Position numbers and translations under genes: made by a program. A model generated the notes under the pieces. The model did no database searches. It worked only from the letters and a program-made list of their open reading frames with translations, and had not been told where the DNA came from. Positions 7,118 to 29,669 of a stretch of DNA of 36,944 bases are shown here, piece by piece. Source of the stretch: Methanobacteriota archaeon (GTDB lineage: Archaea > Thermoplasmatota > Thermoplasmata > UBA10834); NCBI GenBank assembly GCA_020725925.1, contig DYTN01000004.1, forward strand, positions 70,441 to 107,384, given 5' to 3'. Each line of letters opens with the position of its first letter. Position 1 is the stretch's first letter.

Positions 7118-7280
7118 TGCTATTGAAGGGTGGGCCGAAAGTCCCGCCCCTGAGCTGCCTGACCGCGGTATGCTCAGTCGCCATCCCCGCACTGGTCTCT
7201 GGGCTCGTACGGTACGAGACTCGGCCGCACACGGTCTTCGGATGGCCTGCGGCATATCCTTGCTTGGCACTGCCTGTAGC

Positions 7281-7514
7281 CTACCTGTTCGCAGCGCCGA
7301 ACTTGCGCCTGAGCTTGCCCTCGAGTTCGAGCCTCTTCTTCGGGTCGTCGAGCCACGCCTTCATCTGCATCCATATCTCAGGGCAGTGCTCTCCCTCACG
7401 TCCGACTATCTTGGCTATCTCGTGCTCGATGGCCTTCGCGTTCTCCTTCGTGACCTCAATCCCGAGCTTGGCGAAGTAGCCCTTCTTGTTCAGATGCCCG
7501 ACAAAACACGTCAT
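7281..7514 (-). CDS. Small conserved-looking protein coupled to the iron-sulfur flavoprotein
   Basis: A 77-aa basic protein beginning MTCFVGHLNKKGYFAKLGIE, with a single HCPEIW motif near residues 43-48 and an all-helical appearance. Its ATG overlaps the TGA of the upstream flavoprotein gene (ATGA at 7511-7514), so the two are almost certainly translated together. It has two cysteines (Cys3 and Cys44), too few for a classical zinc ribbon. I do not recognise the family; an accessory role for the flavoprotein is inferred from coupling alone. Confidence 0.75.
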   Translation of the reverse strand: MTCFVGHLNKKGYFAKLGIEVTKENAKAIEHEIAKIVGREGEHCPEIWMQMKAWLDDPKKRLELEGKLRRKFGAANR

Positions 7515-8089
7515 CGCCCCACCATCCTCAGGAGCTCGGCCATGCGCTCCCCGAGGTCCCTGGCGCTTCGGAGGCCCTCCTTGTCCTTCTTGATGTCGCC
7601 TCTGTGGTCTGCAGTGCCCATGGCCCCGAACAATCCCCCTTTCGGATTGGCAACAATCATGCCGTGGAACGCGAAGAAGGTCATTATCTGAAGCACGGCG
7701 AGCTCCTGCCCTCCGTGGGCGCCCGCCCCGACGCTTATGGCCGCCCCGACCTTGTCCTTGAACGCCTGGATGTTGTACGGTATGACGCTCCTGTCCATGA
7801 GGGCCTTTAGCTGGGCGGTTACGTCGGCACCATACACCGGCGACCCGATGATCAGCCCGTCCGCCTTGGCCATCTTCCTCAACAGCTTCAGGGCGTCATC
7901 CTTGATCGGGCATTGCCAGGGCTTCGTGTAGCACTCCTCGCACGCGTCACACGGCCGGATGTCGTAGTCCCTGACGGAGACGAACTCGACCTTCACGCCC
8001 GCGCGCATGAGCGGCTTCGCCGCCTCATCGATCATGACCTGGGTGTTCCCGTTCTTCCTGGGACTGCCGTTTATCGCCAGCACCTTCAT
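7511..8089 (-). CDS. Iron-sulfur flavoprotein / NADPH-dependent FMN reductase family
   Basis: A 192-aa flavodoxin-like protein. MKVLAINGSPRKNGNTQ is the FMN phosphate-binding loop. It is followed by the compact cysteine cluster CDACEECYTKPWQC (residues about 48-61, CX2CX2CX6C), the hallmark of the iron-sulfur flavoproteins (Isf) of methanogens and relatives, which carry one 4Fe-4S cluster plus FMN and move electrons, for example in oxidative-stress defence. GSPVYGADVTAQLKALMDR is the second flavin-contacting stretch. The ATG at 8089 has an AAGGAGGATC ribosome binding site about 8 nt upstream; a longer frame exists upstream but overlaps the reductase gene antisense and is not coding. Confidence 0.88.
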   Translation of the reverse strand: MKVLAINGSPRKNGNTQVMIDEAAKPLMRAGVKVEFVSVRDYDIRPCDACEECYTKPWQCPIKDDALKLLRKMAKADGLIIGSPVYGADVTAQLKALMDRSVIPYNIQAFKDKVGAAISVGAGAHGGQELAVLQIMTFFAFHGMIVANPKGGLFGAMGTADHRGDIKKDKEGLRSARDLGERMAELLRMVGR

Positions 8090-8223: not shown

Positions 8224-11200
8224 CTACCAGCACTTCGAGAAGCCGCAGGTCCTGCAGACCACGCACCCCTCGACGTACTCCACCATGCTCCCGCACTCCG
8301 GGCATTCGGGGCAGACGTCCCCCTTGTCGACGTAGTTCTGCTTGGCGACCCCGGCCTCGGCGGCGGGTGCGGGGACCTCGCCCGCCTCCGCAGCGAGCGG
8401 CCTGTCCTTGACGAACCGCTCCAGGGCCTTTGCGACGGCGTCGCTGCACGACAGAACCATCCCGCCGGGCTGCCAGAGCGGCGACGGGCACCTGATGCCC
8501 TTGAGCTGCTTCACTATCGCCTCCGGCTCGATCCCCGAGCGCAGGGCGAGTGAGATGAGCCTCCCGACGGCCTCCGCCTGCGATGCGGTGCACCCTCCGG
8601 ACTTGCCCATCTGGGTGAAGACCTCGCACAGGCCCCTCTCGTCCTCGTTGATCGTGACATACAGGTGCCCGCACCCCGTCTCGAGCCTCTGCGTTGTGCC
8701 CCTGGTGATGTACGGGCGGGCGCGCGGGAGCCTCGCGGCCTCTTCGCCCTCGGCCACAGCCTCCTCGGCTCCCCGCACCTCCCCCACGCTCAGCACCTGG
8801 TTCTCCCGGCTGCCGTACCTGTACACGGTGACGCCTTTGCACCCTAGCCTGTAGGCAGTCATGTACACGTCCTCGACGTCCTTGGGCGTCGCGTCCTTGG
8901 GGAAATTTACCGTCTTGGATACGGCGTTGTCCGTGTGGTCCTGGAACGCTGCCTGCATCCGTATGTGCCACTCGGGGGTGATGTCCAGGGCGGTGACGAA
9001 CAGCCTCCGGACGTCCTCGGGGACCATCTTCAGGTCCCTGAGCGAGCCTTTGGACGCTATCTCCTTCATCAGCTCGTCCGTGTAGAACCCGCGCTCCCTG
9101 GCGACCTCCTCGAAGATGGGGTTGACCTCCGGCAGGATGTCCTTGTCCATCACATTCCGGACGTACGCCACGGCGAATATGGGCTCGATGCCGCTCGAGA
9201 CGCCCGAGATGATGCTGATCGTGCCCGTGGGCGCGATGGTCGTCACCGTGGCGTTCCTGAGCTTGTCGTACTTCCCCCTCAGCGTGCTCCCTGGGAAGTT
9301 CGGGAATGGCCCGCGCTCCTCCGCCAGACCGACCGAGGCCTTGTGCCCCTCATCGTCGATGAAGACCATCAGCCTCTGGCCCAGCTTCATGGCGTCCTCG
9401 GTGTCGTATGGTATGCCCAGCCTGAGGAGCATGTCCGCGAAGCCCATGATCCCGAGCCCGATCTTCCTGTTCGCCCTGGTCATCTCCTCGATCTGCCTGA
9501 GCGGGTACTTATTGACGTCGATGACGTTGTCCAGGAACCTGATGGACCACCTGACCGTCTCCCCGAGCTTCGCCCAGTCGACATCCAGCCTCCCGTCCTT
9601 GTATGCGAGCATCTTGGCGAGGTTGACCGAGCCGAGGTTGCACGACTCATACGGCAGGAGCGGCTGCTCCCCGCACGGGTTGGTGCTCTCGATCTCGCCC
9701 ACCTTCGGCGTGGGGTTGTCCCTGTTGATCCTATCCAGGAATATGATGCCCGGCTCGCCGTTCCGCCAGGCCATGTTGACTATCATCTCGAAGATCTTCC
9801 TGGCCTTGAGCTTCCTGACGGGCTGTTTCGTCCGGGGGTTGACGAGGTCGTACTCGGCGTCGTCCTCGAGCGCCTTCATGAACTTGTCCGTCAGCGCGAC
9901 GGAGATGTTGAAGTTGGTGAGCTTGGAGCTGTCCCGCTTGGAAGTGATGAACTCCACTATGTCGGGATGGTCCACGCGGAGGATGCCCATGTTGGCCCCC
10001 CGCCTGGTCCCGCCCTGCTTGATGGTCTCCGTGGCTGCGTTGAAGACCTCCATGAACGAGATGGGCCCGCTCGAGACCCCCGCGGTGCTCTTGACCGAGT
10101 CACTCGCCGGCCTGAGCCTCGAGAAGCTGAACCCCGTGCCCCCGCCGCTGTTGTGGGACACGAAGCCGTTCGCCAGGTACGCGTGCCTCTGGGGCACGGT
10201 CAGGTCGACCACCTCGCGCCTGCCAGCAGGCATGACGCCCGTTACCGTCACGAAGTACGTGCCGTCATCGTCGGGCTCGTCGTGCAGCTCCCCGCCCGCC
10301 TCGAGCTCCTCCGCCATCGTTCCCTGGTCGGCGCTCATCAGTCTCTTCGACAGAAGCACGGAATCGAAGCCGACCTTCTCCCTGAAGACCATGAACCCCG
10401 AGCGGGTGCACACGGTGAGCTTCGAGCCCCGTCTGCAGGTTGGGACGCCCAGGTAGAACATGACCGTCTGGATCTCCGTGGCCAGATGCTCAGAGCCGCA
10501 GTCCGCGCTGACGACGCCAGCGGGGGAAACCCAGCCGCGGTCGCTGAAGATCCTCCTCAGGAAGGCGCAGAGCGCCCCCTCGCTGGCCGAGGTGACGCTC
10601 TCGCCGAGGCCTGAGTCGAGGGACTCGGAGGGGACGCTGACAACGACGCTCTCCGTGCCTCCCAGCCATCCTCCCAGCTTCATCACGAGCCTGTCGCCGG
10701 GCACGAGCTGTCCGATCTTCTTCCACGCGAGCTGGCCGTCCGTGCCCTGCACCATCAGCCTGTGGAGCGCCGTCCCCGTGATGCCGCAGCCCTCGCGGGT
10801 CTCGACCCGGAAGACCTCCTGAACCCCGTTCACGTGCTTCGAGCGGACGAGGTCCATCCCCTCGTGCGTTTCGATCCAGGTGCCCGCCTGAACGGATCCC
10901 AGCCTGGCACACCCGTCATCGGTCATCACGAGCGTCTCGGGCACGAGGCACTTGTGTATGAGGGCCGTGTACTTGATCGCGTCGAAGATCTCCTCCATCG
11001 AGTCGCCTATGGGCAGGACGAAGCACGCCGACAGCTGTCCCAGCTCCCTGCCAGCGTTCATGAGCGTTGGGCTGTTGGGCATGAACTCCAGCTTGGCCAT
11101 CATTTCGTAGAACTTCTCGGCGACCTTCTCGATCTCCTTTTCGTCCTTCCCGTAGTTGCCCTCGGCAGACGCGATGGCCCTGGCCACCCTCTCGAAGAGC

Positions 11201-11373
11201 TGCCTGGGCGTCTCCACGGGCTTGCCGTCGTCGTCCTTTCTGAGGTACCTCCGCTCGAGGACGACCCTCGCGTTGGCAGTTATCTGGGGTTCAAGGGCCC
11301 ATCCTCGGGCTGTCGTTCTTTTGCTGGCGAGTGCGACAGCACCCCCTGCTGACTGACCTGAAACGGTCGGCAT
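8224..11373 (-). CDS. nrdJ: Adenosylcobalamin-dependent (class II) ribonucleotide reductase containing an intein
   Basis: Reduces ribonucleotides to deoxyribonucleotides with a B12-derived radical. The precursor is 1049 aa from the ATG at 11373 (GAGGGGGAG just upstream); removing the 267-aa intein leaves 782 aa. Visible residues: redox Cys in GQLSACFVLP, the active-site motif NPCGEQPLLPYESCNLGS (thiyl Cys and Glu), RRGANMGILRVDHPDI, and ATVTTIAPTGTISIISGVSSG. The C-terminus is a Cys-rich tail (about 25 residues, CX2CX9CX2CX2CX4C) typical of NrdJ. The frame is open up to 11493 but only from a GTG without a good ribosome site. The gene is preceded by an unusually long leader. Confidence 0.95.
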   Translation of the reverse strand: MPTVSGQSAGGAVALASKRTTARGWALEPQITANARVVLERRYLRKDDDGKPVETPRQLFERVARAIASAEGNYGKDEKEIEKVAEKFYEMMAKLEFMPNSPTLMNAGRELGQLSACFVLPIGDSMEEIFDAIKYTALIHKCLVPETLVMTDDGCARLGSVQAGTWIETHEGMDLVRSKHVNGVQEVFRVETREGCGITGTALHRLMVQGTDGQLAWKKIGQLVPGDRLVMKLGGWLGGTESVVVSVPSESLDSGLGESVTSASEGALCAFLRRIFSDRGWVSPAGVVSADCGSEHLATEIQTVMFYLGVPTCRRGSKLTVCTRSGFMVFREKVGFDSVLLSKRLMSADQGTMAEELEAGGELHDEPDDDGTYFVTVTGVMPAGRREVVDLTVPQRHAYLANGFVSHNSGGGTGFSFSRLRPASDSVKSTAGVSSGPISFMEVFNAATETIKQGGTRRGANMGILRVDHPDIVEFITSKRDSSKLTNFNISVALTDKFMKALEDDAEYDLVNPRTKQPVRKLKARKIFEMIVNMAWRNGEPGIIFLDRINRDNPTPKVGEIESTNPCGEQPLLPYESCNLGSVNLAKMLAYKDGRLDVDWAKLGETVRWSIRFLDNVIDVNKYPLRQIEEMTRANRKIGLGIMGFADMLLRLGIPYDTEDAMKLGQRLMVFIDDEGHKASVGLAEERGPFPNFPGSTLRGKYDKLRNATVTTIAPTGTISIISGVSSGIEPIFAVAYVRNVMDKDILPEVNPIFEEVARERGFYTDELMKEIASKGSLRDLKMVPEDVRRLFVTALDITPEWHIRMQAAFQDHTDNAVSKTVNFPKDATPKDVEDVYMTAYRLGCKGVTVYRYGSRENQVLSVGEVRGAEEAVAEGEEAARLPRARPYITRGTTQRLETGCGHLYVTINEDERGLCEVFTQMGKSGGCTASQAEAVGRLISLALRSGIEPEAIVKQLKGIRCPSPLWQPGGMVLSCSDAVAKALERFVKDRPLAAEAGEVPAPAAEAGVAKQNYVDKGDVCPECPECGSMVEYVEGCVVCRTCGFSKCW
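10150..10950 (-). mobile_element. Intein in NrdJ with decayed LAGLIDADG endonuclease region
   Basis: In-frame protein-splicing element of 267 residues between Lys of ALIHK and Ser of SGGGTGFSFS. It begins with Cys (CLVPETLVMTDDG, block A), has a block B with TALH (Thr and His three apart), a block F-like VVDLTVPQRHAYLANG and ends FVSHN, with Ser as the +1 residue. All splicing residues are therefore present. The middle (about residues 105-210) resembles one half of a LAGLIDADG homing endonuclease (ALCAFLRRIFSDRGWV, HLATEIQTVMFYLGVP, FMVFREKVGF), but the second half and the paired catalytic motif are missing. The element is longer than a mini-intein and shorter than a full one. Confidence 0.93.
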
Positions 11374-11879
11374 TTCTCCCCCTCTGAGCTCGATGCTGTA
11401 TCTTCCAAGCTGCTCTGAAGCCCGACGCCCTTGGCGTGTGGGATAGCCTTGCCCCGAGTTCTTGCGACAGAAGACTATCCCTGGCCCCTCCACCTCTGCT
11501 TGGCATGTGCGAGGTGAAAAGCTTTGCTATTGCGTGCAGTCCGCAAACGGGTAACATCACATAAAGACGTTTTCTGACACGACCTGATAACAGATTTCGG
11601 TCCTCGTTGGCCCCTCCTGTCGATAATCGTATCATATATGTTATCAGATTATTTATCAACTCGCTCTGCCAGATTGGCGGCACGGCCTTGGGGCAGGTCA
11701 TGACACGCATGCGCTGCCGAGGAGTGCAGACGAAGTAGCGCTCCGAAGAACTCGTTTCCTGTGCGGGTTGTCCGCGCTCGATTGCCGTTTCGTCGTTTCC
11801 CTTCAGAAATCGGTCGAATCCTTGATTAGGGAGCCGCATCTATCCCTCGAAGAGTCCGAAAGCAATTGGAGAGCACAGC
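11374..11879. other. 506-bp gene-free stretch between nrdJ and the MoaD-like gene
   Basis: No convincing protein gene is seen on either strand. The stretch must hold two divergent promoters. Minus-strand TATA candidates for nrdJ are at 11651-11657 (gataaat) and 11559-11569 (cgtctttatgt), implying leaders of about 256 or 166 nt. A perfect 9-bp inverted pair, ctgataaca (11584-11592) and tgttatcag (11639-11647), brackets an AT-rich core. A weak plus-strand TATA candidate for the MoaD-like gene is cttgattaggg (11821-11831). Confidence 0.5.
11425..11481 (-). promoter_or_regulatory. Possible structured RNA leader of nrdJ
   Basis: Within the nrdJ leader two inverted repeats sit side by side: acgcc/ggcgt with a 3-nt loop (11425-11437), and gggatag/ctatccc (11440-11446 with 11475-11481), whose interior holds a further 4-bp ttct/agaa stem. 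They lie 52-108 nt before the start codon. I do not see the conserved boxes of a cobalamin riboswitch. A regulatory function is speculation. Confidence 0.25.
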
Positions 11880-12192: not shown

Positions 12193-14265
12193 ATGGCGCG
12201 CTTTTGTCTCAGGGTCGCATCTGCAGCTCTTCTTCTCCTTCTCGCGTTGCCTCTTGGCATAGCTTCCGACAGGACCGATGCGGCAGTTCCGATCGAGGCA
12301 GGAGCGGACTCCCTGGTCATCCAGGCTCCTCCGGTCTACTACGACTACAGGAACCACTCGGAGATCAAGGCCGCCCTCTACGGCATCGAAACAAGCCATC
12401 CGCTGATATCCAAGGTCTACGACATAGGCGATTCGTGGGAGAAGACCCAGGGGCTCGCGGACAGGGACATCATCGCACTCAAGGTCTCAGACAAGGTCTC
12501 GGGGGACGAGGACGAACCCGAGGTCATGATTGTCGGCCTCCACCACGCGAGGGAGTGGCCGACGTCCGAGATCGTGCTCGAAATCGCGAAGAACCTCACG
12601 GACAACTACGGGAACGACTCCAGGATAAGCTGGCTCGTGGATAACCGGGAGATATGGATAGTCCCGCTTGTAAACCCGGACGGGCTGGACTACGCCCTGC
12701 AGTACGACGAGTGGTGGCGCAAGAACAGGCGCCTGAACTACGATGGCACGTATGGAGTGGACCTGAACAGGAACTATGCCGGCTCGATGAACGGCGACCC
12801 CGAGGGTGCCTGGGGCGGCGCCGGGTCGTCCCACGACCCCAGCTCGGAGGTCTACTGCGGCGAGTTTCCGTTCTCGGAGCCGGAGACGCAGGCCATCAGG
12901 GACCTCGTGCTCGCACGCGACTTCGAGATTGCCCTGGACTTCCACAGCTACGGCGAGCTTGTCATGTGGCCGTGGGGGTACACCACCGAGGTGACGCCTG
13001 ATGACGCCGACCTCGTCCGGATAGGCAACGAGCTCGCGGCGCTCAACGGCTACACGGCGGAGCAATCCGTCGGCCTGTATCCCACCACGGGCGACTCCAT
13101 CGACTGGCACTACGGCGGGGCAGACATCTACGCGTTCTGTTTCGAGGTCGGGAGGGAGTTCCACCCGGATTGGACGAGCGACGTGCTCGCGATCATTGCT
13201 GAGAACATCCCGCCCGCTCTGCTGGGGATCGAGATCGCTGGGGACAGGGAGGAGCGCGCGTTCGACATCTCTCACGAAGCCGTCCCGCTCAGAAACTACA
13301 CGGCCATCGGGATCGCCCTGAACGCGACCGTCACGGCCGACAGAGGAGTCGACACTTCGTCGGTGAGGCTCCACTTCAGCGTCGATGGAGGAGCCTGGTC
13401 GGTCCTGTCGATGTCCCTCTCGTCCGGCAACGACACCTACTTCGGACGCCTGCCTGAGCTGCCCGTCGGGAGCATCGTCGAGTACTACTTCGTGGCCAGC
13501 GACCTCGCGGAGGCGGAGCGCATGGCCCCCCTGTACGCCCCGTACGAAGTGTTCTCGTTCATGGTCACCGAAGAAGGACCAGCGAGCCCAGTGGAGGTGA
13601 CGTTCAGCCCGCCTTCGGAGATAGACGGCTCTGTCTCGAACACGGTCGCAGCCCATGCTCACAACGTCACCGCAGATATGGAGCTGCTGCTCCACTTGGT
13701 CAACGCGTCATCGGGCTACACGCTGGACGTCGCAATGGAGCACATCGCCGGGGACGATTTCAGCGGCGTCCTCCCGGCCGGCATCCCGTTGGGAGAATCC
13801 GACCTGTGGCTGACCGTGGAGGAGCTGGGCATCGAGATCTGGTCATCGGCTCCAAGCCTCCTCATGGTGAGCGACCAGACAGCTCCCGCCTTCTCAGCCC
13901 ACGACGCCGTACAGCTCGACCAGACCACGGTGGTGTTCACCGTGAACTGCTCGGACACCTACGGGGTCGTGCTAGTCGTGCTGACCTACAGGGAGGTGGG
14001 CGGCGGTCCGGCGCAGTCTGTCGACATGGTTCTCGCGGAAGGCACTTCCACGGACGGGATGTGGTCGGTCACGGTGACGATAGGCGGGTCCGATCCCGTC
14101 GAGTACAGCTACCGAGCGCACGACAACGTTCAGTCCGCCGACCTCCCCGAGACCGGGAGCTTCCTGTTCACGCCCGTGGAGATCCCGGAGTTCTCGCTCG
14201 TTCTGCTCGTGGTCGCCGTGACCGCGCTCTCCGTCGCGATGCTCAGTCGAGCAAGACGACCTTGA
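12193..14265 (+). CDS. Secreted, membrane-anchored M14 zinc carboxypeptidase
   Basis: A 690-aa exported metallopeptidase of the carboxypeptidase A/T type. Residues 1-25 form a signal peptide (basic MARFCLR, then a Leu/Ala-rich core). The catalytic domain (about 40-340) shows the zinc ligands HHAREWPTSE (HxxE) and DFHSYGE, the substrate-binding DLNRNY and NREIWIVPLVNPDG, and the catalytic Glu in AFCFEVGREFHP. A beta-sandwich-rich region follows. The C-terminus is IPEFS plus a hydrophobic segment and a basic end (LSRARRP), resembling PEF-CTERM/archaeosortase-type anchors. It probably digests extracellular peptides. An in-frame GTG at 12181 is an alternative start. The stop overlaps the convergent UPF0179 gene by 23 bp. 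Confidence 0.9.
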   Translation: MARFCLRVASAALLLLLALPLGIASDRTDAAVPIEAGADSLVIQAPPVYYDYRNHSEIKAALYGIETSHPLISKVYDIGDSWEKTQGLADRDIIALKVSDKVSGDEDEPEVMIVGLHHAREWPTSEIVLEIAKNLTDNYGNDSRISWLVDNREIWIVPLVNPDGLDYALQYDEWWRKNRRLNYDGTYGVDLNRNYAGSMNGDPEGAWGGAGSSHDPSSEVYCGEFPFSEPETQAIRDLVLARDFEIALDFHSYGELVMWPWGYTTEVTPDDADLVRIGNELAALNGYTAEQSVGLYPTTGDSIDWHYGGADIYAFCFEVGREFHPDWTSDVLAIIAENIPPALLGIEIAGDREERAFDISHEAVPLRNYTAIGIALNATVTADRGVDTSSVRLHFSVDGGAWSVLSMSLSSGNDTYFGRLPELPVGSIVEYYFVASDLAEAERMAPLYAPYEVFSFMVTEEGPASPVEVTFSPPSEIDGSVSNTVAAHAHNVTADMELLLHLVNASSGYTLDVAMEHIAGDDFSGVLPAGIPLGESDLWLTVEELGIEIWSSAPSLLMVSDQTAPAFSAHDAVQLDQTTVVFTVNCSDTYGVVLVVLTYREVGGGPAQSVDMVLAEGTSTDGMWSVTVTIGGSDPVEYSYRAHDNVQSADLPETGSFLFTPVEIPEFSLVLLVVAVTALSVAMLSRARRP

Positions 14266-17955: not shown

Positions 17956-20115
17956 ATGAGGACATGCGAGCACGCATTGACCCAGACGACCGACGCCCAG
18001 GCGACTGGCAAGCGGCACGACGACCCTGGGGCTTTCGAGCAGGCCAACGCCGCCTACGATGCCGGGGAGTACCAGAGGGCCCTCGAGCTCTTCGACTCGG
18101 TAATCGACGGCGGCACCTCCAACGAGGTCGTGTTCAACAACCGGGGGGCCTGTCTGGACGCCCTCGGGAGGAACCACGAGGCCGTCGAGTCGTACAACCG
18201 GGCGATCTCGCTCAACCCCAAGTATGAGCTGGCCTGGCACAACCTCGGCAACTCCCTCTTCATACAGGAGCTCGACAGGGACGCCGTGAGCGCGTACGCC
18301 CAGGCGTCCGTGCTCAAGCCCGAGAGGAGGGAGAACTGGACAGGGTTGGCCTCCGGCCTCATCAGGCTCAAGAGGGAGCGCAGGGCGAAGCTGGCGATCG
18401 ACAGGCTCTCGGATTTCGCGGACACGGACGACTCTGTCCTGCTCACGCAGGCGGACCTCTACCTCGAGGCGGGGTTCCACAATCGCTCAGCGGAGTGCTG
18501 CGAGGCGTTCCTGAAGAAGCACCCCGAATCCCCCGCAGGCTACGCCCGGCTGGGGAGCGCACAGCACGAGGCCGAACAGTACGACAAGGCCATCGGGACA
18601 TTCGAGAAGGCGCTCAAGCTCGTGCCCATGGACAAGGAGCTCTGGAACAACCTGGGATACACCAACTTCGTGTCCGGGAACCTGGAGAGGGCGCTGATGT
18701 GTTTCGACCGCGCGCTCGGCATCGACCCGAAGTACAAGAACGCGTGGTACAACAAGGGGTACGCCTTCCATGGGGCCGACAGGCTCGAGGAGGCAGTCGA
18801 ATGCTACATGAAGACGCTCGCGCTCGACCGTCACGACAAGGTGCTGTGGAACAACCTGGGGAACGCGCTGTACAACCTCGGGAGGTACTCAGACTCCGTG
18901 CCGAAGTTCGTCGAGGCCATCCTCATCGACCCGGACTACGAGATCGCGTGGACCAACATAGGCAACGCGCTCGAGAGGATGGCGCTGTTCGGAGAGGCCA
19001 TCCCGTACCACGACAGGTCCCTTGAGATCAGCCCGTCGTTCGACTACGCGCTCTACGCCAAGGGCTTCTGCAAGGCGATGACCGGAGAGCTCGAGGAGGG
19101 CTATGACCTCGTGGCCGAGTCGCTCGACCTCAACCCGGCCTATGACGAGGCCTGGAAGGCCCGTTCGGCGATTGCGGGCATGATGGGGAGGTGGGACGAC
19201 GCGCTCATATCGATCGAGGAGTCGCTGGCCTTAAACCCCGAGTTCGACCAGGGCTGGGTCGAGAGGGGGGAGATCCTTCTCCGGACCGGGAGCGCGGAGG
19301 CGGCCCAGGCGTCCTTCGAGATGGCCCTCAAGTGCCTCGAAAACGTGCAGACGGACACCGCGAGCGGCCTCGCAGCCCTGATCAGGCGCGGTGAGGTGCT
19401 CGCGCGCATGGGGAGGTTTGACGAGGCCCTGGCGAACCTCGAGACAGTCGCCATCTCCGGCAAGCTCGATTCCTCCTGCATTTCCAAGGCGCTCCAGCTG
19501 AGGCGATTCCTGGGCCTCATGGACCTCCCGAGGGCCATGAGGGAGGTCGCCGAGCGGTCCAGGGACACGAAGGCGCGGCTGGACCTCGCATCGTTCCTCA
19601 TTGATGCTGGCGACCATCAGGGCGCGGAGAGGGTCTTGGATGCCACCCCCGAGGTCGCCAATCGCTCGTCCGAGATAGCATTGCTGAAGGCGAGGGCGAA
19701 AGCGGCCTCCGGGAACGTGGATGGCGCGGTGGCCATCGCCTCGAGGATGGCGGGGTCGGCGCCGACCGCAGAGGTTCTGAGGCTCGAGGCGGAGGCGCTG
19801 GAAGCGAAGGGCGAGCTCGAGGCCGCCACCTCCGCCTACGAGAAAGTGATGAGGATATGCCCGTCGGACCTCCGCTCCGCGTTAGCCCTTGCGAGGCTCT
19901 CGCTCGCGTCGGGCGAACCGAAGGACGCCCTCGTGTACTCTGTGCTAGCGGTCGGCATAGACCCGACGGACTGGGAGCCGCACAAGCTCAGGTCCGACGC
20001 CTTCGCGGCGATGGGGGACAGGACCAGGGCGGCATCCGAGCTCTCAGAGGCGAAGGGGCTGCTCGCGCGTGCGGGCCTGAAAGCGGGCGATTGGCTCCGT
20101 GGTGATAGGGCATGA
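17956..20115 (+). CDS. Tetratricopeptide repeat (TPR) protein, 719 aa
   Basis: An almost pure TPR solenoid. Repeats of 34 residues run from about residue 25 to 460, for example AFEQANAAYDAGEYQRALEL, AWHNLGNSLFIQELDRDAV, ELWNNLGYTNFVSGNLERAL and VLWNNLGNALYNLGRYSDSV, each closing with a Pro at the usual place (LNPKYELAW, IDPKYKNAW). The C-terminal third has more divergent repeats. There is no signal peptide or membrane segment, so it should be a cytosolic scaffold for protein interactions. Its TGA overlaps the ATG of the PUA protein gene (ATGA, 20112-20115), implying coupled translation. The partner is unknown. Confidence 0.92.
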   Translation: MRTCEHALTQTTDAQATGKRHDDPGAFEQANAAYDAGEYQRALELFDSVIDGGTSNEVVFNNRGACLDALGRNHEAVESYNRAISLNPKYELAWHNLGNSLFIQELDRDAVSAYAQASVLKPERRENWTGLASGLIRLKRERRAKLAIDRLSDFADTDDSVLLTQADLYLEAGFHNRSAECCEAFLKKHPESPAGYARLGSAQHEAEQYDKAIGTFEKALKLVPMDKELWNNLGYTNFVSGNLERALMCFDRALGIDPKYKNAWYNKGYAFHGADRLEEAVECYMKTLALDRHDKVLWNNLGNALYNLGRYSDSVPKFVEAILIDPDYEIAWTNIGNALERMALFGEAIPYHDRSLEISPSFDYALYAKGFCKAMTGELEEGYDLVAESLDLNPAYDEAWKARSAIAGMMGRWDDALISIEESLALNPEFDQGWVERGEILLRTGSAEAAQASFEMALKCLENVQTDTASGLAALIRRGEVLARMGRFDEALANLETVAISGKLDSSCISKALQLRRFLGLMDLPRAMREVAERSRDTKARLDLASFLIDAGDHQGAERVLDATPEVANRSSEIALLKARAKAASGNVDGAVAIASRMAGSAPTAEVLRLEAEALEAKGELEAATSAYEKVMRICPSDLRSALALARLSLASGEPKDALVYSVLAVGIDPTDWEPHKLRSDAFAAMGDRTRAASELSEAKGLLARAGLKAGDWLRGDRA

Positions 20116-20627
20116 CGGAGCTGCGGCTCAGGAAGAGGCACAGGCTGAGGCAGAAGGAGATTGCGGACCTCGCGGCGAAGATAGATGCCTCTCTGGGCAC
20201 GAAGAGCTTCGGGCCAGCCGACACCGTCGATATGGCGGAGGCCCCCGAGTACGAGGTGGTCTATGTCGATGGCAAGATACTCGCATTCGTGCTGAAGGGC
20301 GTGCCGTTCCTGACAGTCAAGGGCCTCCTCCGATACGGCGCGTCCAGGAGGTTCGTCACCGTGGACATGGGGGCCGTGAAGTTCGTGTACAACGGGGCGG
20401 ACGTCATGGGCCCCGGCATCGCGTCCTCGGACCCGTCGATCTCGGAGGGGGACATGGTCTGGATCAGGGACGAGAAGAACCTCCGGCCTTTGGCAATCGG
20501 CATCGCGCTCGTCTCGGGCGCGGAGATGGCCCTCAGGTCGAAGGGCAAGGCGGTCGCGTCCGTGCACCACGTGGGGGACAAGCTCTGGCTGGCGGACGAG
20601 CCAAAGGATGCGGAACCCGCCCACTAG
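20112..20627 (+). CDS. PUA-domain RNA-binding protein, MCT-1/Tma20-like
   Basis: A 171-aa protein with a basic N-terminal pre-PUA segment (LRLRKRHRLRQKEIADLAAK) followed by a PUA domain (about residues 82-160; RFVTVDMGAVKFVYNGADVM, GDMVWIRDEKNLRPLAIGIA, SKGKAVASVHHVGD). This order matches archaeal relatives of eukaryotic MCT-1/Tma20 and the N-terminal part of eIF2D, which work on ribosome recycling and non-canonical initiation. It probably binds ribosomal RNA or tRNA (inference from family). Its start is fused to the TPR stop (ATGA), which could link the TPR protein to translation. Confidence 0.85.
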   Translation: MTELRLRKRHRLRQKEIADLAAKIDASLGTKSFGPADTVDMAEAPEYEVVYVDGKILAFVLKGVPFLTVKGLLRYGASRRFVTVDMGAVKFVYNGADVMGPGIASSDPSISEGDMVWIRDEKNLRPLAIGIALVSGAEMALRSKGKAVASVHHVGDKLWLADEPKDAEPAH

Positions 20628-20631
20628 GAGA

Positions 20632-20639
20632 TTTTATAT
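20632..20639 (+). promoter_or_regulatory. TATA box of sepF
   Basis: ttttatat just after the PUA gene stop predicts transcription from about 20660-20664. That is downstream of the GTG at 20658, so it favours the GTG at 20676 as the start. Confidence 0.5.
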
Positions 20640-20675
20640 CCGGACACGATTATTACAGTGGCCGAGGGATGTACA

Positions 20676-21071
20676 GTGACGATTCTCAAGAAGAAGCCGT
20701 TTCCCACCGACGAGGCGAGCGCACCGAGGGAGTCGATGGCTGCAGAGCAGTACATAGACCTCACGGACATGGTCTTCGAGGACGAGGAGCTCGCGGGCAC
20801 GGAGGGCGCGAAGACAGTCGTCAAGGTCGGCGAGATATTCAGGTACGAGGACCTTTCGGGCCTCACGAACGAGGTGTACGGGGACAACATCGTCGTGGTT
20901 GACTACACCTCGATCGCGAACGACGACCTCACCATGAAGCGAGTCACCGCCGAGCTGAAGAACGTCGCGAGGGACGTCGACGGCGACGTCGCGGGCGTCG
21001 GAAGGAACCTCCTGATGATAACGCCGAGAGGCGTCAAGATCGACAGGAACAAGATCAAGGGCGGGTTCTGA
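20676..21071 (+). CDS. sepF: SepF-like cell division protein
   Basis: A 131-aa protein whose C-terminal 80 residues match the SepF family: GDNIVVVDYTSIANDDLTMK, VTAELKNVARDVDGDVAGVG and LLMITPRGVKIDRNKI. In archaea SepF is the membrane anchor of FtsZ at the division site. The linker (ESMAAEQYIDLTDMVFED) is also typical. The start is taken as GTG 20676, which has GAGGGA 7 nt upstream and lies about 13 nt after the predicted transcription start; GTG 20658 is the alternative. The N-terminus (MTILKKKPF) is short and basic, so an amphipathic membrane helix is not obvious. No ftsZ is nearby. Confidence 0.87.
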   Translation: MTILKKKPFPTDEASAPRESMAAEQYIDLTDMVFEDEELAGTEGAKTVVKVGEIFRYEDLSGLTNEVYGDNIVVVDYTSIANDDLTMKRVTAELKNVARDVDGDVAGVGRNLLMITPRGVKIDRNKIKGGF

Positions 21072-24840: not shown

Positions 24841-24950
24841 CTTGCGTGGCGCGCTCGCTGCTGGCAAGAAGGCGCATCATGACCGCGCCCTTCCCGGATA
24901 CGGCGGGTTGCAGCAGGCAAGGTCCCAGCCTTCTCAATGTCCTGACTAGA

Positions 24951-24960
24951 CTATATATAG
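24951..24960 (+). promoter_or_regulatory. TATA box of the zinc-ribbon membrane protein gene
   Basis: The palindrome ctatatatag stands out in the divergent region between rtcB and the gene at 25064. It predicts transcription from about 24981 and a leader of about 83 nt that contains a possible GGTGC/GCACC hairpin. Because it is palindromic it could also be read toward rtcB, but rtcB has a closer element. Confidence 0.45.
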
Positions 24961-25063
24961 GACGAGACTAATAACAACCGTTAGGCGACCTGGGTGCCTG
25001 GCATCGTGCACCGATAAGTGCTGGCATTGACTGTGACTCGCCTCCTCCCGAGGTGTTGACTGC

Positions 25064-26359
25064 TTGGCGGAAGAACCTGCGATCTATTGTCCACTATGTG
25101 GTAACCGCGTTCCCCCCGGGGTGACCAAGTGTCCCGTCTGCGCGACGGAGCTCCAGAAGGTCATCGAGCGCAAGGCGAAGCCGGAGCTGCGGGCCCCAAT
25201 GGTTTCTGAGGACTACCTGCGCAAGGAGATCCCCAAGGTAGAGATCCCGGTCGCCAAGGTCACCTGCCCGCTGTGCGCCATGGAGCTCCAGGGCGGGGAG
25301 GCGAAGTGCCCGAGATGCAGCATTCCCTTGGCGCGCGAGGAGGCGATGCTCGAGTGCCCGGAGTGCGGCGCACTCGTGGCTCTTGGGGCAAGATCATGCC
25401 CGAGCTGCGGTGTGGGATTCGAAGAGGAGGGCGAGGTTCTCGGCCCTCCGCCCATGGAGGAGATCCCTCCGCCACCCGCGCCGATGCCCTTGCCCCTCAA
25501 GCCACCGCCCCCTCCGCCTCCTGAGGTCGTGACCACCGTTCCAGCCACTCAGCCAGCAACGAGCCAAGGCCTGGTGAACGGCCGTGGCGCGGTCAACGGG
25601 ACCGGCCTGGTGAACGGCACCGGCCTGATCAACGGCACAGGCATGACGAACGGCACCAGGATGGAGATCAGGCCCGCGCAGGCAGTCGTGGCGCGGAGGA
25701 TGATACTGACAAGGTGGCAGTTCCTCGCGGTGCTGGTCGCCGTGGTCGTGGTCATCTCGACATTCATATACATCTCGTACTCGCAGGAGGGGGAGCTCTT
25801 CGCAGTTGATGGGGACTTCGGCGAATGGTCCGGCGTTGGCACGTTCGGGGCACGCATCTCATCGGGTTCGGATTCAATCGATATCGACCAGTGGGCCGTG
25901 CACATCGACGGGCCCAGGCTGTTCATGTACATGCAGGTGGTCGGCCAGCTAATGGCGTCTGCCGATGTCGAGAGCTTCTACATGTTCGTCGACTCGGACG
26001 ACTCGGATGGCACAGGATACCTCGTCTCGGGGATGGGGGCCGAGTACATGCTGGAGGTCAGCGGCTGGGACGGCGAGGTCCAGTCCAGCTCGGTCTCGGA
26101 CTACGGCTCATCGTCGGACCAGTACGACTGGAACTCCTGGAGGAAGCTCGGCTCGATGGGTACCGCCCTGACAGGCAACGAGCTCGAGGGCGTGGCCGAT
26201 TTGTCAGCGACCCTCGGCGCTGACGCTCGATTCATGGTGATGTCCCAGGACAGCCTCGAGAGGAGCTCGGCGAGCTACCCTGTCCCGCAGTCCGGAGGGC
26301 TCTTGATCGTGAACCAGGAGGCCGGCCCCGGGGTCCAGGCTTCCGGGCTCGTGGCCTAG
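25064..26359 (+). CDS. N-terminal part of a zinc-ribbon, single-pass membrane protein with extracellular domain
   Basis: 431 residues before an in-frame TAG. Three zinc ribbons come first (Cys9/12/23/26, Cys68/71/82/85, Cys98/101/112/115), then a Pro-rich linker (128-165), five six-residue Asn-Gly repeats (169-198), a basic stretch, one membrane helix (219-239) and an outside domain beginning FAVDGDFGEWSGV. Basic residues before the helix put the zinc ribbons in the cytoplasm. Start is TTG 25064 with GAGGTG 8 nt upstream. The same frame resumes after TAG 26357-26359 and carries a second copy of the outside domain, so this is probably one protein interrupted by a stop (mutation, error or readthrough). 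Function unknown; a sensor or adaptor across the membrane is inferred. Confidence 0.8.
   Translation: MAEEPAIYCPLCGNRVPPGVTKCPVCATELQKVIERKAKPELRAPMVSEDYLRKEIPKVEIPVAKVTCPLCAMELQGGEAKCPRCSIPLAREEAMLECPECGALVALGARSCPSCGVGFEEEGEVLGPPPMEEIPPPPAPMPLPLKPPPPPPPEVVTTVPATQPATSQGLVNGRGAVNGTGLVNGTGLINGTGMTNGTRMEIRPAQAVVARRMILTRWQFLAVLVAVVVVISTFIYISYSQEGELFAVDGDFGEWSGVGTFGARISSGSDSIDIDQWAVHIDGPRLFMYMQVVGQLMASADVESFYMFVDSDDSDGTGYLVSGMGAEYMLEVSGWDGEVQSSSVSDYGSSSDQYDWNSWRKLGSMGTALTGNELEGVADLSATLGADARFMVMSQDSLERSSASYPVPQSGGLLIVNQEAGPGVQASGLVA
25568..25657 (+). repeat. Five tandem 18-bp repeats encoding a Gly/Asn linker
   Basis: Five 18-bp units encode GLVNGR, GAVNGT, GLVNGT, GLINGT and GMTNGT. Codons differ between units (for example AAC fixed but GGC/GGG/GGA varied), so the peptide rather than the DNA is conserved. 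It forms a flexible linker between the zinc ribbons and the membrane helix. The NGT triplets look like glycosylation sites but should be on the cytoplasmic side. Confidence 0.85.
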
Positions 26360-26416
26360 GGCTCCGCCATATCCCCGCTCAGACTCAGGTTCACATGCGA
26401 AGGCGCCTCGGGCGTT

Positions 26417-28510
26417 GTGTCGAGCGCGTTCCCCACGGTCGTCGGCGCCACGGGTGTGACCAATATTCAGAACGTCCAGGTCGTGCTGGGAGAGGAGCAG
26501 GTCGTAGACTATGCGGTCGACATCTCCTCGGTCGCAGCCGGGACATTCGTGTCCGCAGCGTTGTCCCCTGGTGACGTGAGCTCATCGTTCGACCACATCA
26601 TCGTGCTGGGATACGCTGCGCGAGCGTACGTCCTCTCACCGCCTGCCGACATACTGATCGACGGCGCGTTCGCCGACTGGAACGGGAAGGCCACGGCCGA
26701 CTCGGACACCTTCACGCTCGCGAACCCTAACATCGACATCGCGGCTGTCGGAGCCGTGAACAACACTGAGTCCGCCTCGTTCTACGTGAGCGTCGTGGGA
26801 GACATGTGCAGCGGCTCTGCGATCCCGATAATCCTTGCGAAACCGACTGGCGGAGGCGGAGGCGTGATCATCCCGTCCAGGAAGACGGGCGAGGATCTGC
26901 TCCGCGTCTACATAGACAGCGACATGTCCGTCTCCACCGGCTACAACGTCGCTCTGTCGACGGAGTTCATCGGGGCCGACTACAAGGTCGAGGTGCATGG
27001 CCTCGAAGGCAAGGTCGTGTCCAAGCAGCTGATGCAGTACTCTGGCGGCCAGTGGGTCGTGATGCAGGGCGCCCAGGTGGACGCCGCGAACGACGCGAAA
27101 AAGCTCGAGGTCGCTGTCATGGCCAGTGCCATCGGGAGCAGCTCGATCGACTTCATCGTGGAAACGACGGACTGGCGCGCCAGGACCGACCTGGCGACCG
27201 CAGTTCCCCTCGGGACGCGCTCCATGACCGGCCCGATGGCCTCCGGCATCTCTCCCGAGGGCTGGATCATCGACGGCCCGACGACATCGTCTTCCGCGAC
27301 GGCCATGTCCTACCAGAGGAAGCTGTTCTACGACGGGACGAACTTCTGGAGCTTCTACTGGGACGGCGTGAACACGGTCTACAAGTACAGCACGGACGGC
27401 GGCCAGACCTGGACTCTTGGGACCTCCGTGTTCAAGACCACGGGGATCAACGAGGTCTCCCTGTGGTATCACTCAGCATCGAACACGGTGTACGCGGTGG
27501 GAGATGCCGGGACGGCGTCCCTGAATGTGTACCTCCAGCGCGGGACCGTGGACCCGGCGATGCACACCATCTCCTGGCCGGACCCGGATCGCATGCTGCC
27601 CGCGTCGGCCAATGTCCTCGGCGGCAAGAACGCATACATCTCTAGGGACGCCTCGGGCTATCTCTGGGTCATGTCCAGCAACTGCACGAACCCCGCCTCC
27701 CCCGTGAGGTACGACCTCTCCGTGTTCAGGAGCTCTGCCGTGGACAGCATCACCTCGTGGGTCTACTCCGGCAATAACCTCTCCGCGGATAGCAACCAGC
27801 CGGTCCTGAAGGGATCGGTCGTCCCGACGGGCACGGGCTCCGACGTCTGGGCCGTATACGGCTACGAAGGCAACGTGGCAGCGAGGCAGTACACCGGCAC
27901 GTGGTCCACGGAGGAGCTAGTCTTCGACATTGCCCTGGCTGGTCCAAACGACGACAACCCGGGCAACACGGACGTCGCACCTCCCTCCTGCCTCGTCGAC
28001 TCGAACGGCGTCCTGCATGTCTTGTATGGCAACGGCCACGAGCAGTCAAGCGTCTCCAAGCCCCGGATATTCTACGCCTACAACACGGGCTCGGCCTGGT
28101 CTGCGGACCCTGATATTCAGCTCGACTCGGCCTCGTCCCAGGAGGGCAATCACCGCCCAACGATAAGCCTCGATTCGCAGACCGGCAATGTCTACGCCTT
28201 CTGGATCGAGACGGACAACGGCGACCTCGGCCTCACCATCATGGGCATGAAGAACGTCAGCGGCACGTGGACCTCGCTCACGATCGGTGGCCAGACGGCG
28301 GGCGAGAAGCGCTACCTGACATCGATATACAGCGCTCCTGGCGAGAACTACATATGCTGGCAATGGACGCAGAACACGACCGCCCCGATACAGGTCATCT
28401 TCGACAAGATACCGGAGTTCTCGGACGCCGTCGTGCCCGTGTTCATATCGCTCCTGATATTGGTCGCCTTCATGCGCAGGGATAGGGCCCGTAGAACTAA
28501 GAAGGGCTGA
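26417..28510 (+). CDS. C-terminal part of the same surface protein: repeat domain, Asp-box region and membrane anchor
   Basis: About 697 residues in the same frame as the preceding gene, beginning after its TAG. The frame is open from 26360, so GTG 26417 is only a formal start. It has no signal peptide or N-terminal membrane helix and could not be exported alone. Contents: a beta-rich segment, then a second domain opening ILIDGAFADWNGK that parallels FAVDGDFGEWSGV upstream, then a propeller-like region with an Asp-box (STDGGQTW, about residues 325-332), and the C-terminus IPEFSDAVVPVFISLL with a basic tail, a PEF-type anchor. If readthrough or a single base change joins the halves, the protein is about 1150 aa. 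Ligand unknown; carbohydrate binding is possible from the domain style. Confidence 0.72.
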   Translation: MSSAFPTVVGATGVTNIQNVQVVLGEEQVVDYAVDISSVAAGTFVSAALSPGDVSSSFDHIIVLGYAARAYVLSPPADILIDGAFADWNGKATADSDTFTLANPNIDIAAVGAVNNTESASFYVSVVGDMCSGSAIPIILAKPTGGGGGVIIPSRKTGEDLLRVYIDSDMSVSTGYNVALSTEFIGADYKVEVHGLEGKVVSKQLMQYSGGQWVVMQGAQVDAANDAKKLEVAVMASAIGSSSIDFIVETTDWRARTDLATAVPLGTRSMTGPMASGISPEGWIIDGPTTSSSATAMSYQRKLFYDGTNFWSFYWDGVNTVYKYSTDGGQTWTLGTSVFKTTGINEVSLWYHSASNTVYAVGDAGTASLNVYLQRGTVDPAMHTISWPDPDRMLPASANVLGGKNAYISRDASGYLWVMSSNCTNPASPVRYDLSVFRSSAVDSITSWVYSGNNLSADSNQPVLKGSVVPTGTGSDVWAVYGYEGNVAARQYTGTWSTEELVFDIALAGPNDDNPGNTDVAPPSCLVDSNGVLHVLYGNGHEQSSVSKPRIFYAYNTGSAWSADPDIQLDSASSQEGNHRPTISLDSQTGNVYAFWIETDNGDLGLTIMGMKNVSGTWTSLTIGGQTAGEKRYLTSIYSAPGENYICWQWTQNTTAPIQVIFDKIPEFSDAVVPVFISLLILVAFMRRDRARRTKKG

Positions 28511-28549: not shown

Positions 28550-28558
28550 TTATATAAT
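28550..28558 (+). promoter_or_regulatory. TATA box of the four-ribbon protein gene (leaderless)
   Basis: ttatataat is centred about 25 nt upstream of ATG 28578, which places transcription start on that codon. It rules against the ATG at 28557, which lies inside the TATA box. Confidence 0.55.
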
Positions 28559-28577
28559 GGACAAGGCCATTCCTGAC

Positions 28578-29210
28578 ATGATGGAAGAATCTCGCAAGGA
28601 CATCTTCCTCAGCTGCTTCAAGTGCGGCAGGATCGTGAAGTCCAATGACACGGAATGTCCGCGCTGCGGCCTGCAGTTCGGCCCCGGGACCCTATTCGAA
28701 TGCCCGTTCTGCTGCGGCCTCATCTGGCGCAACGCCACGTCCTGCACCACGTGCGGCATAGACCTCTCCAAGTTCTCCGAGAGCGTAGAGCGCTCGAGCG
28801 CCGGCTTCGACATGGACGAGTTCGTCGACGGGATCATCAGCACAGAGATGCGGTCGATGAAGGATTCCGTCAGGAGGGTCGCGTGCCCTGGATGCGGGCT
28901 CATGATCCGCGGGGACGAGGAGAGGTGTCCTCGGTGCGACCTGCCCCTCGAGGAGGCCCAGGTCGATTGTCCAGTGTGCGGCGAGAAGCTCCCCTTCTCC
29001 GCCCAGTCGTGCTCGAACTGCGGGGCCTTATTCGGTGAGGTGCCGGCGAAGGCCGAGGAGGAAGAGGGCGCACCTGAGCGCCCGGCTCCTGCGATAGACC
29101 TCAGAGTCAAAGAGCAGATGGGCAAGGCTCCCAGGCCCAAGGCCGCGAAGAAGCCCGCAGTGCCGAAGAAGAAGCCTACTAAGAAGGCGAGGCCGAAGAA
29201 GGCCAAGTAG
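28578..29210 (+). CDS. Four-zinc-ribbon protein with lysine-rich tail
   Basis: 210 residues with four CX2C...CX2C ribbons: Cys13/16/27/30, Cys42/45/56/59, Cys103/106/117/120 and Cys131/134/145/148, arranged as two tandem pairs around a helical spacer (66-100). The last 35 residues are Lys/Pro/Ala-rich (KKPAVPKKKPTKKARPKK), like histone-H1-type or nucleic-acid-binding tails, after an acidic patch (EEEEG). No membrane segment. It may bind DNA, RNA or the ribosome (inference). It sits in a run of zinc-ribbon genes. ATG 28578 or 28581 is chosen from the TATA position; the transcript is probably leaderless. Confidence 0.82.
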   Translation: MMEESRKDIFLSCFKCGRIVKSNDTECPRCGLQFGPGTLFECPFCCGLIWRNATSCTTCGIDLSKFSESVERSSAGFDMDEFVDGIISTEMRSMKDSVRRVACPGCGLMIRGDEERCPRCDLPLEEAQVDCPVCGEKLPFSAQSCSNCGALFGEVPAKAEEEEGAPERPAPAIDLRVKEQMGKAPRPKAAKKPAVPKKKPTKKARPKKAK

Positions 29211-29260
29211 AAATAGTCTCCCTGGCCGTTGTTTCTGTCCGCGAGCGCCCATCCGAAATC

Positions 29261-29270
29261 ATTTAAATAA
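29261..29270 (+). promoter_or_regulatory. TATA box of the three-ribbon protein gene (leaderless)
   Basis: atttaaataa is centred 26-27 nt upstream of ATG 29292, so the transcript should begin at or next to the start codon. Confidence 0.6.
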
Positions 29271-29291
29271 CCGTATCCGCATCTTAGTACC

Positions 29292-29669
29292 ATGGGCAAG
29301 GAACCCCTGCCAGTCTTCGTTTTCGGCTGCCTGTCGTGTGGGAAGACCGTGGCGGGGAAGGAGAAGGCCTGCCCGAGGTGCGGCGCTTCCTTCGACGATG
29401 TCAAGTTCGAATGCCCCTTCTGCGGAGAGCTGGTCTCGCCTTCCCAGACCAGGTGCAGGTCGTGCGGGACCGAGTTCAGCGCCTTCGCGGCAGGCGTGTG
29501 TGAGAGCTCGGCAGTCAATCTGGACGGTTCCGAGAGCGACGCACATCCCAAGCCGACGGGCAGGGCGGGTGGCGGGCTAGAGCAGCTCTCCTATGAGTGC
29601 CCGAATTGCGGAAAGCCCGTGTCCGAAAGCGACACGAAGTGCCCCCATTGCGGAGCTGCGTTCCTGTAG
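29292..29669 (+). CDS. Three-zinc-ribbon protein
   Basis: 125 residues containing ribbons Cys13/16/27/30, Cys41/44/55/58 and Cys103/106/117/120 separated by a low-complexity spacer (60-100). The first pair is similar in layout to the first pair of the preceding protein (CPRCG then ECPFCG), pointing to duplication within this island. No catalytic motif or membrane segment is visible. Function unknown; zinc binding and protein or nucleic-acid contact are inferred. It has its own TATA box and no ribosome binding site, so it is probably a leaderless single-gene transcript. Confidence 0.82.
   Translation: MGKEPLPVFVFGCLSCGKTVAGKEKACPRCGASFDDVKFECPFCGELVSPSQTRCRSCGTEFSAFAAGVCESSAVNLDGSESDAHPKPTGRAGGGLEQLSYECPNCGKPVSESDTKCPHCGAAFL

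Follow-up and report, generated by a model that had tools for sequence, protein, structure and literature searches.

A private in-frame TAG interrupts a conserved gene for a predicted zinc-ribbon and beta-propeller surface protein in an archaeon of the class Thermoplasmata

The interrupted gene and its predicted product

In the window, by which we mean the whole 36,944-nucleotide stretch that was analysed, one long coding frame extends on the forward strand from TTG 25064 to TGA 28508–28510 and comprises 1,148 codons, including an in-frame TAG at 26357–26359. The gene and its parts are laid out as follows.

24950–24962, + strand: TATA-box-like element actatatatagg, a putative promoter recognised from sequence; a TATA-like stretch is similarly spaced in nearly all orthologues.
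25050–25055, + strand: GAGGTG, probable ribosome-binding site just 5′ of the TTG start, conserved in most orthologues.
25064–28510, + strand: whole interrupted gene, for a protein with zinc ribbons, a membrane helix and extracellular beta domains; 16 uninterrupted homologues in the genus and family.
25064–26359, + strand: upstream frame, 431 aa, with zinc ribbons on the cytoplasmic side, a single membrane helix and the first of the extracellular beta domains (VDGDFGEW), from translation, family models and the structure model.
25694–25768, + strand: membrane helix, residues about 211–235, from the hydrophobic run RWQFLAVLVAVVVVISTFIYISY in the translation.
26357–26359, + strand: in-frame TAG of this genome alone, in a loop that separates two predicted beta domains, from sequence, alignment and the structure model.
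26360–28510, + strand: downstream part, 716 aa, with a beta domain, a second IDGAFADW domain, a sialidase-like beta-propeller and a C-terminal PEF motif, helix and basic tail, from sequence, family models, the structure model and fold comparison.
28415–28507, + strand: IPEF motif near the C-terminus, then a hydrophobic helix and a basic tail, a PEF-CTERM-like arrangement; PEF is conserved in orthologues and TIGR03024 scores below its cut-off.

After the TAG, the phase is unbroken from 26360 to the TGA at 28508–28510. The 716 open codons past the stop have a probability of about 1e-9 by chance, judged from base composition alone, and the codon-position GC pattern persists across the TAG, with a GC3 of 83% upstream and 85% downstream. 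An earlier note on this DNA had described a TAG that divides one large surface protein and a frame that stays open in the same phase from 26360 to 28510, and both points are confirmed by these data. The anatomy it had read from the letters also agrees with ours: zinc ribbons, a membrane helix (here placed near residues 211–235) and the VDGDFGEW domain lie upstream, while IDGAFADW and a C-terminal membrane helix, followed by a basic tail, lie downstream in a part that lacks an export signal. The upstream 431 codons additionally encode a proline-rich and NGTG-repeat linker. When the sequence of the downstream part (26360–28510) was inspected, no start signal belonging to it could be recognised.

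In a structure model for which 15 sequences were used and whose confidence is moderate (mean pLDDT 74.8), the TAG corresponds to residue 197 and lies in a predicted loop between strands 178–185 and 201–211, and the stop thus falls between two domains. Fold comparison of the model likened the propeller downstream of the TAG to sialidases and to propeller enzymes that act on glucuronate. In the interrupted gene, family models identified the zinc ribbons and, weakly, a BNR repeat, but nothing else, and the read-through protein had no match among phage records. Two small zinc-ribbon-rich genes (28557–29669) lie 3′ of the interrupted gene, the first of which is conserved in place across the family.

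Homologues and age of the stop

With the read-through protein as query against 100 genomes (99 relatives and the one that contains the window), we obtained full-length homologues from Thermoplasmata-class archaea of the same genus and family. In all 16 homologues aligned across the site, a sense codon stands at the TAG column without any internal stop, and the column itself is variable in the family alignment. The gene order in most orthologues is a divergent rtcB, the orthologue of the interrupted gene and a zinc-ribbon gene, and this synteny indicates that most of the homologues are the same gene. Most orthologues also have a TTG start, preceded by a TATA-like element and a ribosome-binding site similar to GAGGTG. 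As all 16 homologues are single-frame and mostly syntenic, the two halves are parts of a single gene, which bears out the suggestion of the earlier note that they form one polypeptide, and only this genome has the TAG. The alignment of homologues that it had proposed as a check gave a sense codon in place of TAG in 16/16 and a conserved TAG in 0/16, and homologues ending naturally at this position, which it had named as evidence against a single gene, were absent from the 16 aligned. Taken from sequence comparison, the 16 uninterrupted homologues are a stronger proof of a single gene than the chance calculation for the open frame.

Several apparent stops among the relatives were rejected on inspection. 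The homologue reported with a TAG in genome G005 carries it at its normal C-terminal end, and an extra TAG in L004 and TGAs in L214–L216 are ordinary gene ends at alignment edges, not internal stops.

To date the stop, we compared branch lengths in trees built separately for each part of the protein. The branch of this genome (L001) was 0.31 before the TAG and 0.32 after it, compared to 0.38 and 0.34, respectively, for its neighbour L002. The downstream part therefore shows no faster divergence in this genome than in sister lineages, although a recent change would show none. The unraised divergence means that the stop is recent, or is an error, or that the downstream part is still made.

Decoding of TAG in this genome

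As TAG is the codon for pyrrolysine, we searched for the machinery that inserts this amino acid. PylS scored over cut-off in one control genome and in G036 and G046, two genomes of the same class, but in neither this genome nor the 18 other family genomes examined; the best match here had an E-value of 1.9e-8 and about 34 bits against a cut-off of 178 bits. PylB gave only a weak radical-SAM-type match (39.6 bits against a cut-off of 348), and the PylC N-terminal domain had no match in this genome. None of the 41 tRNAs, all with the anticodon resolved, has a CUA anticodon, though an unusual tRNA-Pyl could evade the tRNA models used. The search for pylS, pylT, pylB and pylC that the earlier note had proposed was therefore negative throughout, and these absences are not absolute because the genome is 92.9% complete. 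The TAG also lies in a variable loop, not in an active site. The methylamine methyltransferases share with this gene an in-frame TAG in an archaeal gene that is open downstream; their TAG, however, encodes an active-site residue and is accompanied by pylTSBCD, and neither holds for TAG 26357–26359. Judged from these genome searches, pyrrolysine is practically excluded as the reading of the TAG.

A general reassignment of TAG appears to be contradicted as well. In a 1.38-Mb sample of this genome, TAG terminates 197 of the 656 long frames with a visible end (30%), and aRF1 is intact, with its NIKS and YRCDSSF motifs present. The argument of the earlier note that TAG ends too many genes for general reassignment holds in this larger sample, in which TAG behaves as an ordinary gene end.

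Other interruptions in the genome

We scanned a sample of stretches, about 1.38 Mb or about 68% of the genome, for further interruptions. The scan requires coding signal near the stop on both sides, so that it may miss cases and its counts are a lower bound. It listed 48 junctions that keep the frame and show coding signal before and after the stop, most of which were set aside as neighbouring genes with a start codon directly at the stop. Besides TAG 26357–26359, there are at least two clear private in-frame interruptions, one TAG and one TGA, in genes that are intact in relatives. The TAG (L076:11363–11365, G000:C2) lies in a KaiC-like gene (11102–11788) that is uninterrupted in the family members G002, G007, G008 and G016. 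The TGA (L164, minus strand, around 13874–13876, G000:C57) lies in a gene for a membrane protein that is intact in twelve genus and family relatives and is called LysE-like on a reading of its sequence rather than on a profile match. The private cases thus amount to two TAG, including the present one, and one TGA in 68% of the genome, a small number. A few scattered private stops of two types fit mutation or sequence error and do not fit a TAG-specific decoding rule.

Within the window, a second TAG (20625–20627) with same-phase open sequence behind it was considered and rejected, as it marks the end of a gene for a PUA-domain RNA-binding protein; this gene and the SepF-like gene after it, which together occupy 20112–21071, resemble a split gene but are ordinary neighbours. 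The start of the SepF-like gene is not obvious; GTG 20658 is possible.

Origin of the stop

The TAG is very probably a nonsense substitution of recent date that only this sequence has, counting a real mutation and a consensus error together. The findings that point this way are the sense codon in 16/16 mostly syntenic homologues, the variable column, the scattered other interruptions, the unraised downstream divergence, the lack of decoding machinery and the fact that TAG is the likeliest one-step stop, since 218 of the 347 single changes that would create a stop in this gene yield TAG, the commonest outcome. The lack of decay after the TAG counts on the other side, as it would be equally expected from efficient readthrough. 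That the organism truly carries the TAG as an allele is somewhat better than an even bet. It is possible, but rather doubtful, that the organism has no such TAG and an intact gene, and that a base-call, polishing or strain-mixing error, or a minority variant, entered the metagenome consensus. The assembly consists of 73 contigs and the named relatives are MAGs, the TAG is private in a gene that otherwise lacks decay, and the two further single-codon interruptions are likewise private, all of which are consistent with such an error. Against it, the site is well within a 112-kb contig and away from its edges, the surrounding sequence is otherwise normal and in frame, and substitutions in a short-read consensus are rare. 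Nonsense codons in single genomes are common and often errors, and this species is represented by one genome.

Alternatively, a near-cognate tRNA could allow readthrough of the TAG, whether programmed or leaky, which would give this lineage two forms from one gene, a short membrane form and a little full-length surface protein. The good conservation of the downstream part is consistent with this, and the position of the stop between domains in the structure model suggests that both the short and the full-length forms could fold. Bacterial in-frame stops under purifying selection have also been reported (PMC7918605). On the other hand, the TAG is conserved in 0/16 homologues, the RNA past it has a fold energy no better than that of shuffled sequences (z +1.1 to +1.7), and stop-codon readthrough in archaea has been demonstrated for selenocysteine and pyrrolysine only (PMC8037382, PMC8211752). 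On the sequence evidence, we regard non-pyrrolysine readthrough as improbable. It is more improbable still that the gene has been split into two working genes, the second being translated by reinitiation. GTG 26417, the first candidate start, could begin a frame of 697 aa; however, it has no ribosome-binding sequence 5′ of it, no export signal follows it in the downstream part, and the split form occurs in 0/16 homologues. A scan for sigma-70-type promoters, which does not cover archaeal promoters, found none. The earlier note had named four options, of which nonsense mutation and consensus error stand, whereas pyrrolysine is practically excluded and programmed readthrough, for which we found no positive support, is unlikely.

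If the preferred reading of a nonsense substitution is right, a single recent sense-to-stop change would have struck a conserved gene whose product is a surface protein anchored in the membrane, and translation would normally stop at the TAG. The product would be a protein of 431 residues that retains the zinc ribbons, the membrane helix and the first extracellular domain, and would lose the second IDGAFADW domain, the beta-propeller and the C-terminal sorting or anchor segment. The downstream part would then have no efficient route to translation.

Comparison with known systems

A close parallel is the private nonsense interruption of prokaryotic genes, seen as young pseudogenes or population polymorphisms (discussed in PMC7918605). 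As in the present case, one stop lies in frame, the orthologues of all relatives are intact, the sequence has decayed little and the evolutionary life is short. In contrast to those cases, the present one is known from the consensus of one genome only and may be either an allele or an assembly error. The TAG looks like an ordinary nonsense mutation or assembly error, not a new reading of the genetic code, and on its own it is of little importance. If readthrough were true, it would be an unusual archaeal case against the selenocysteine- and pyrrolysine-only precedent (PMC8037382). For annotation, the two predicted proteins belong on record as one interrupted gene.

In predicted fold, the propeller at the C-terminal end resembles GH33 sialidases and BT3686-type propeller enzymes (sialidase-like or BNR-type), at an identity of only about 10–13%. 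The zinc-ribbon N-terminus and the pairing of DGxFxxW domains set this archaeal family apart from these proteins. The family is a conserved one in which, according to the models, a single protein combines cytoplasmic zinc ribbons with a large array at the surface that includes a sialidase-like propeller, and it is uncharacterised in the family libraries searched.

The C-terminal pattern of (I/L)PEF, helix and basic tail is conserved and resembles the PEF-CTERM sorting signal, and PEF is kept in all aligned orthologues that reach the C-terminal end. The gene thus shares with PEF-CTERM archaeosortase substrates a conserved PEF, a hydrophobic helix and a basic tail, but its family model score is under the curated cut-off (TIGR03024, E = 0.127, 14.8 bits against 23). 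The genome also contains two exosortase/archaeosortase-family matches (G000:C19:51578–52216 and 7236–7991). Together with the conserved PEF C-termini, these matches suggest a protein-sorting system in this family whose targets may fall under the cut-off of current models.
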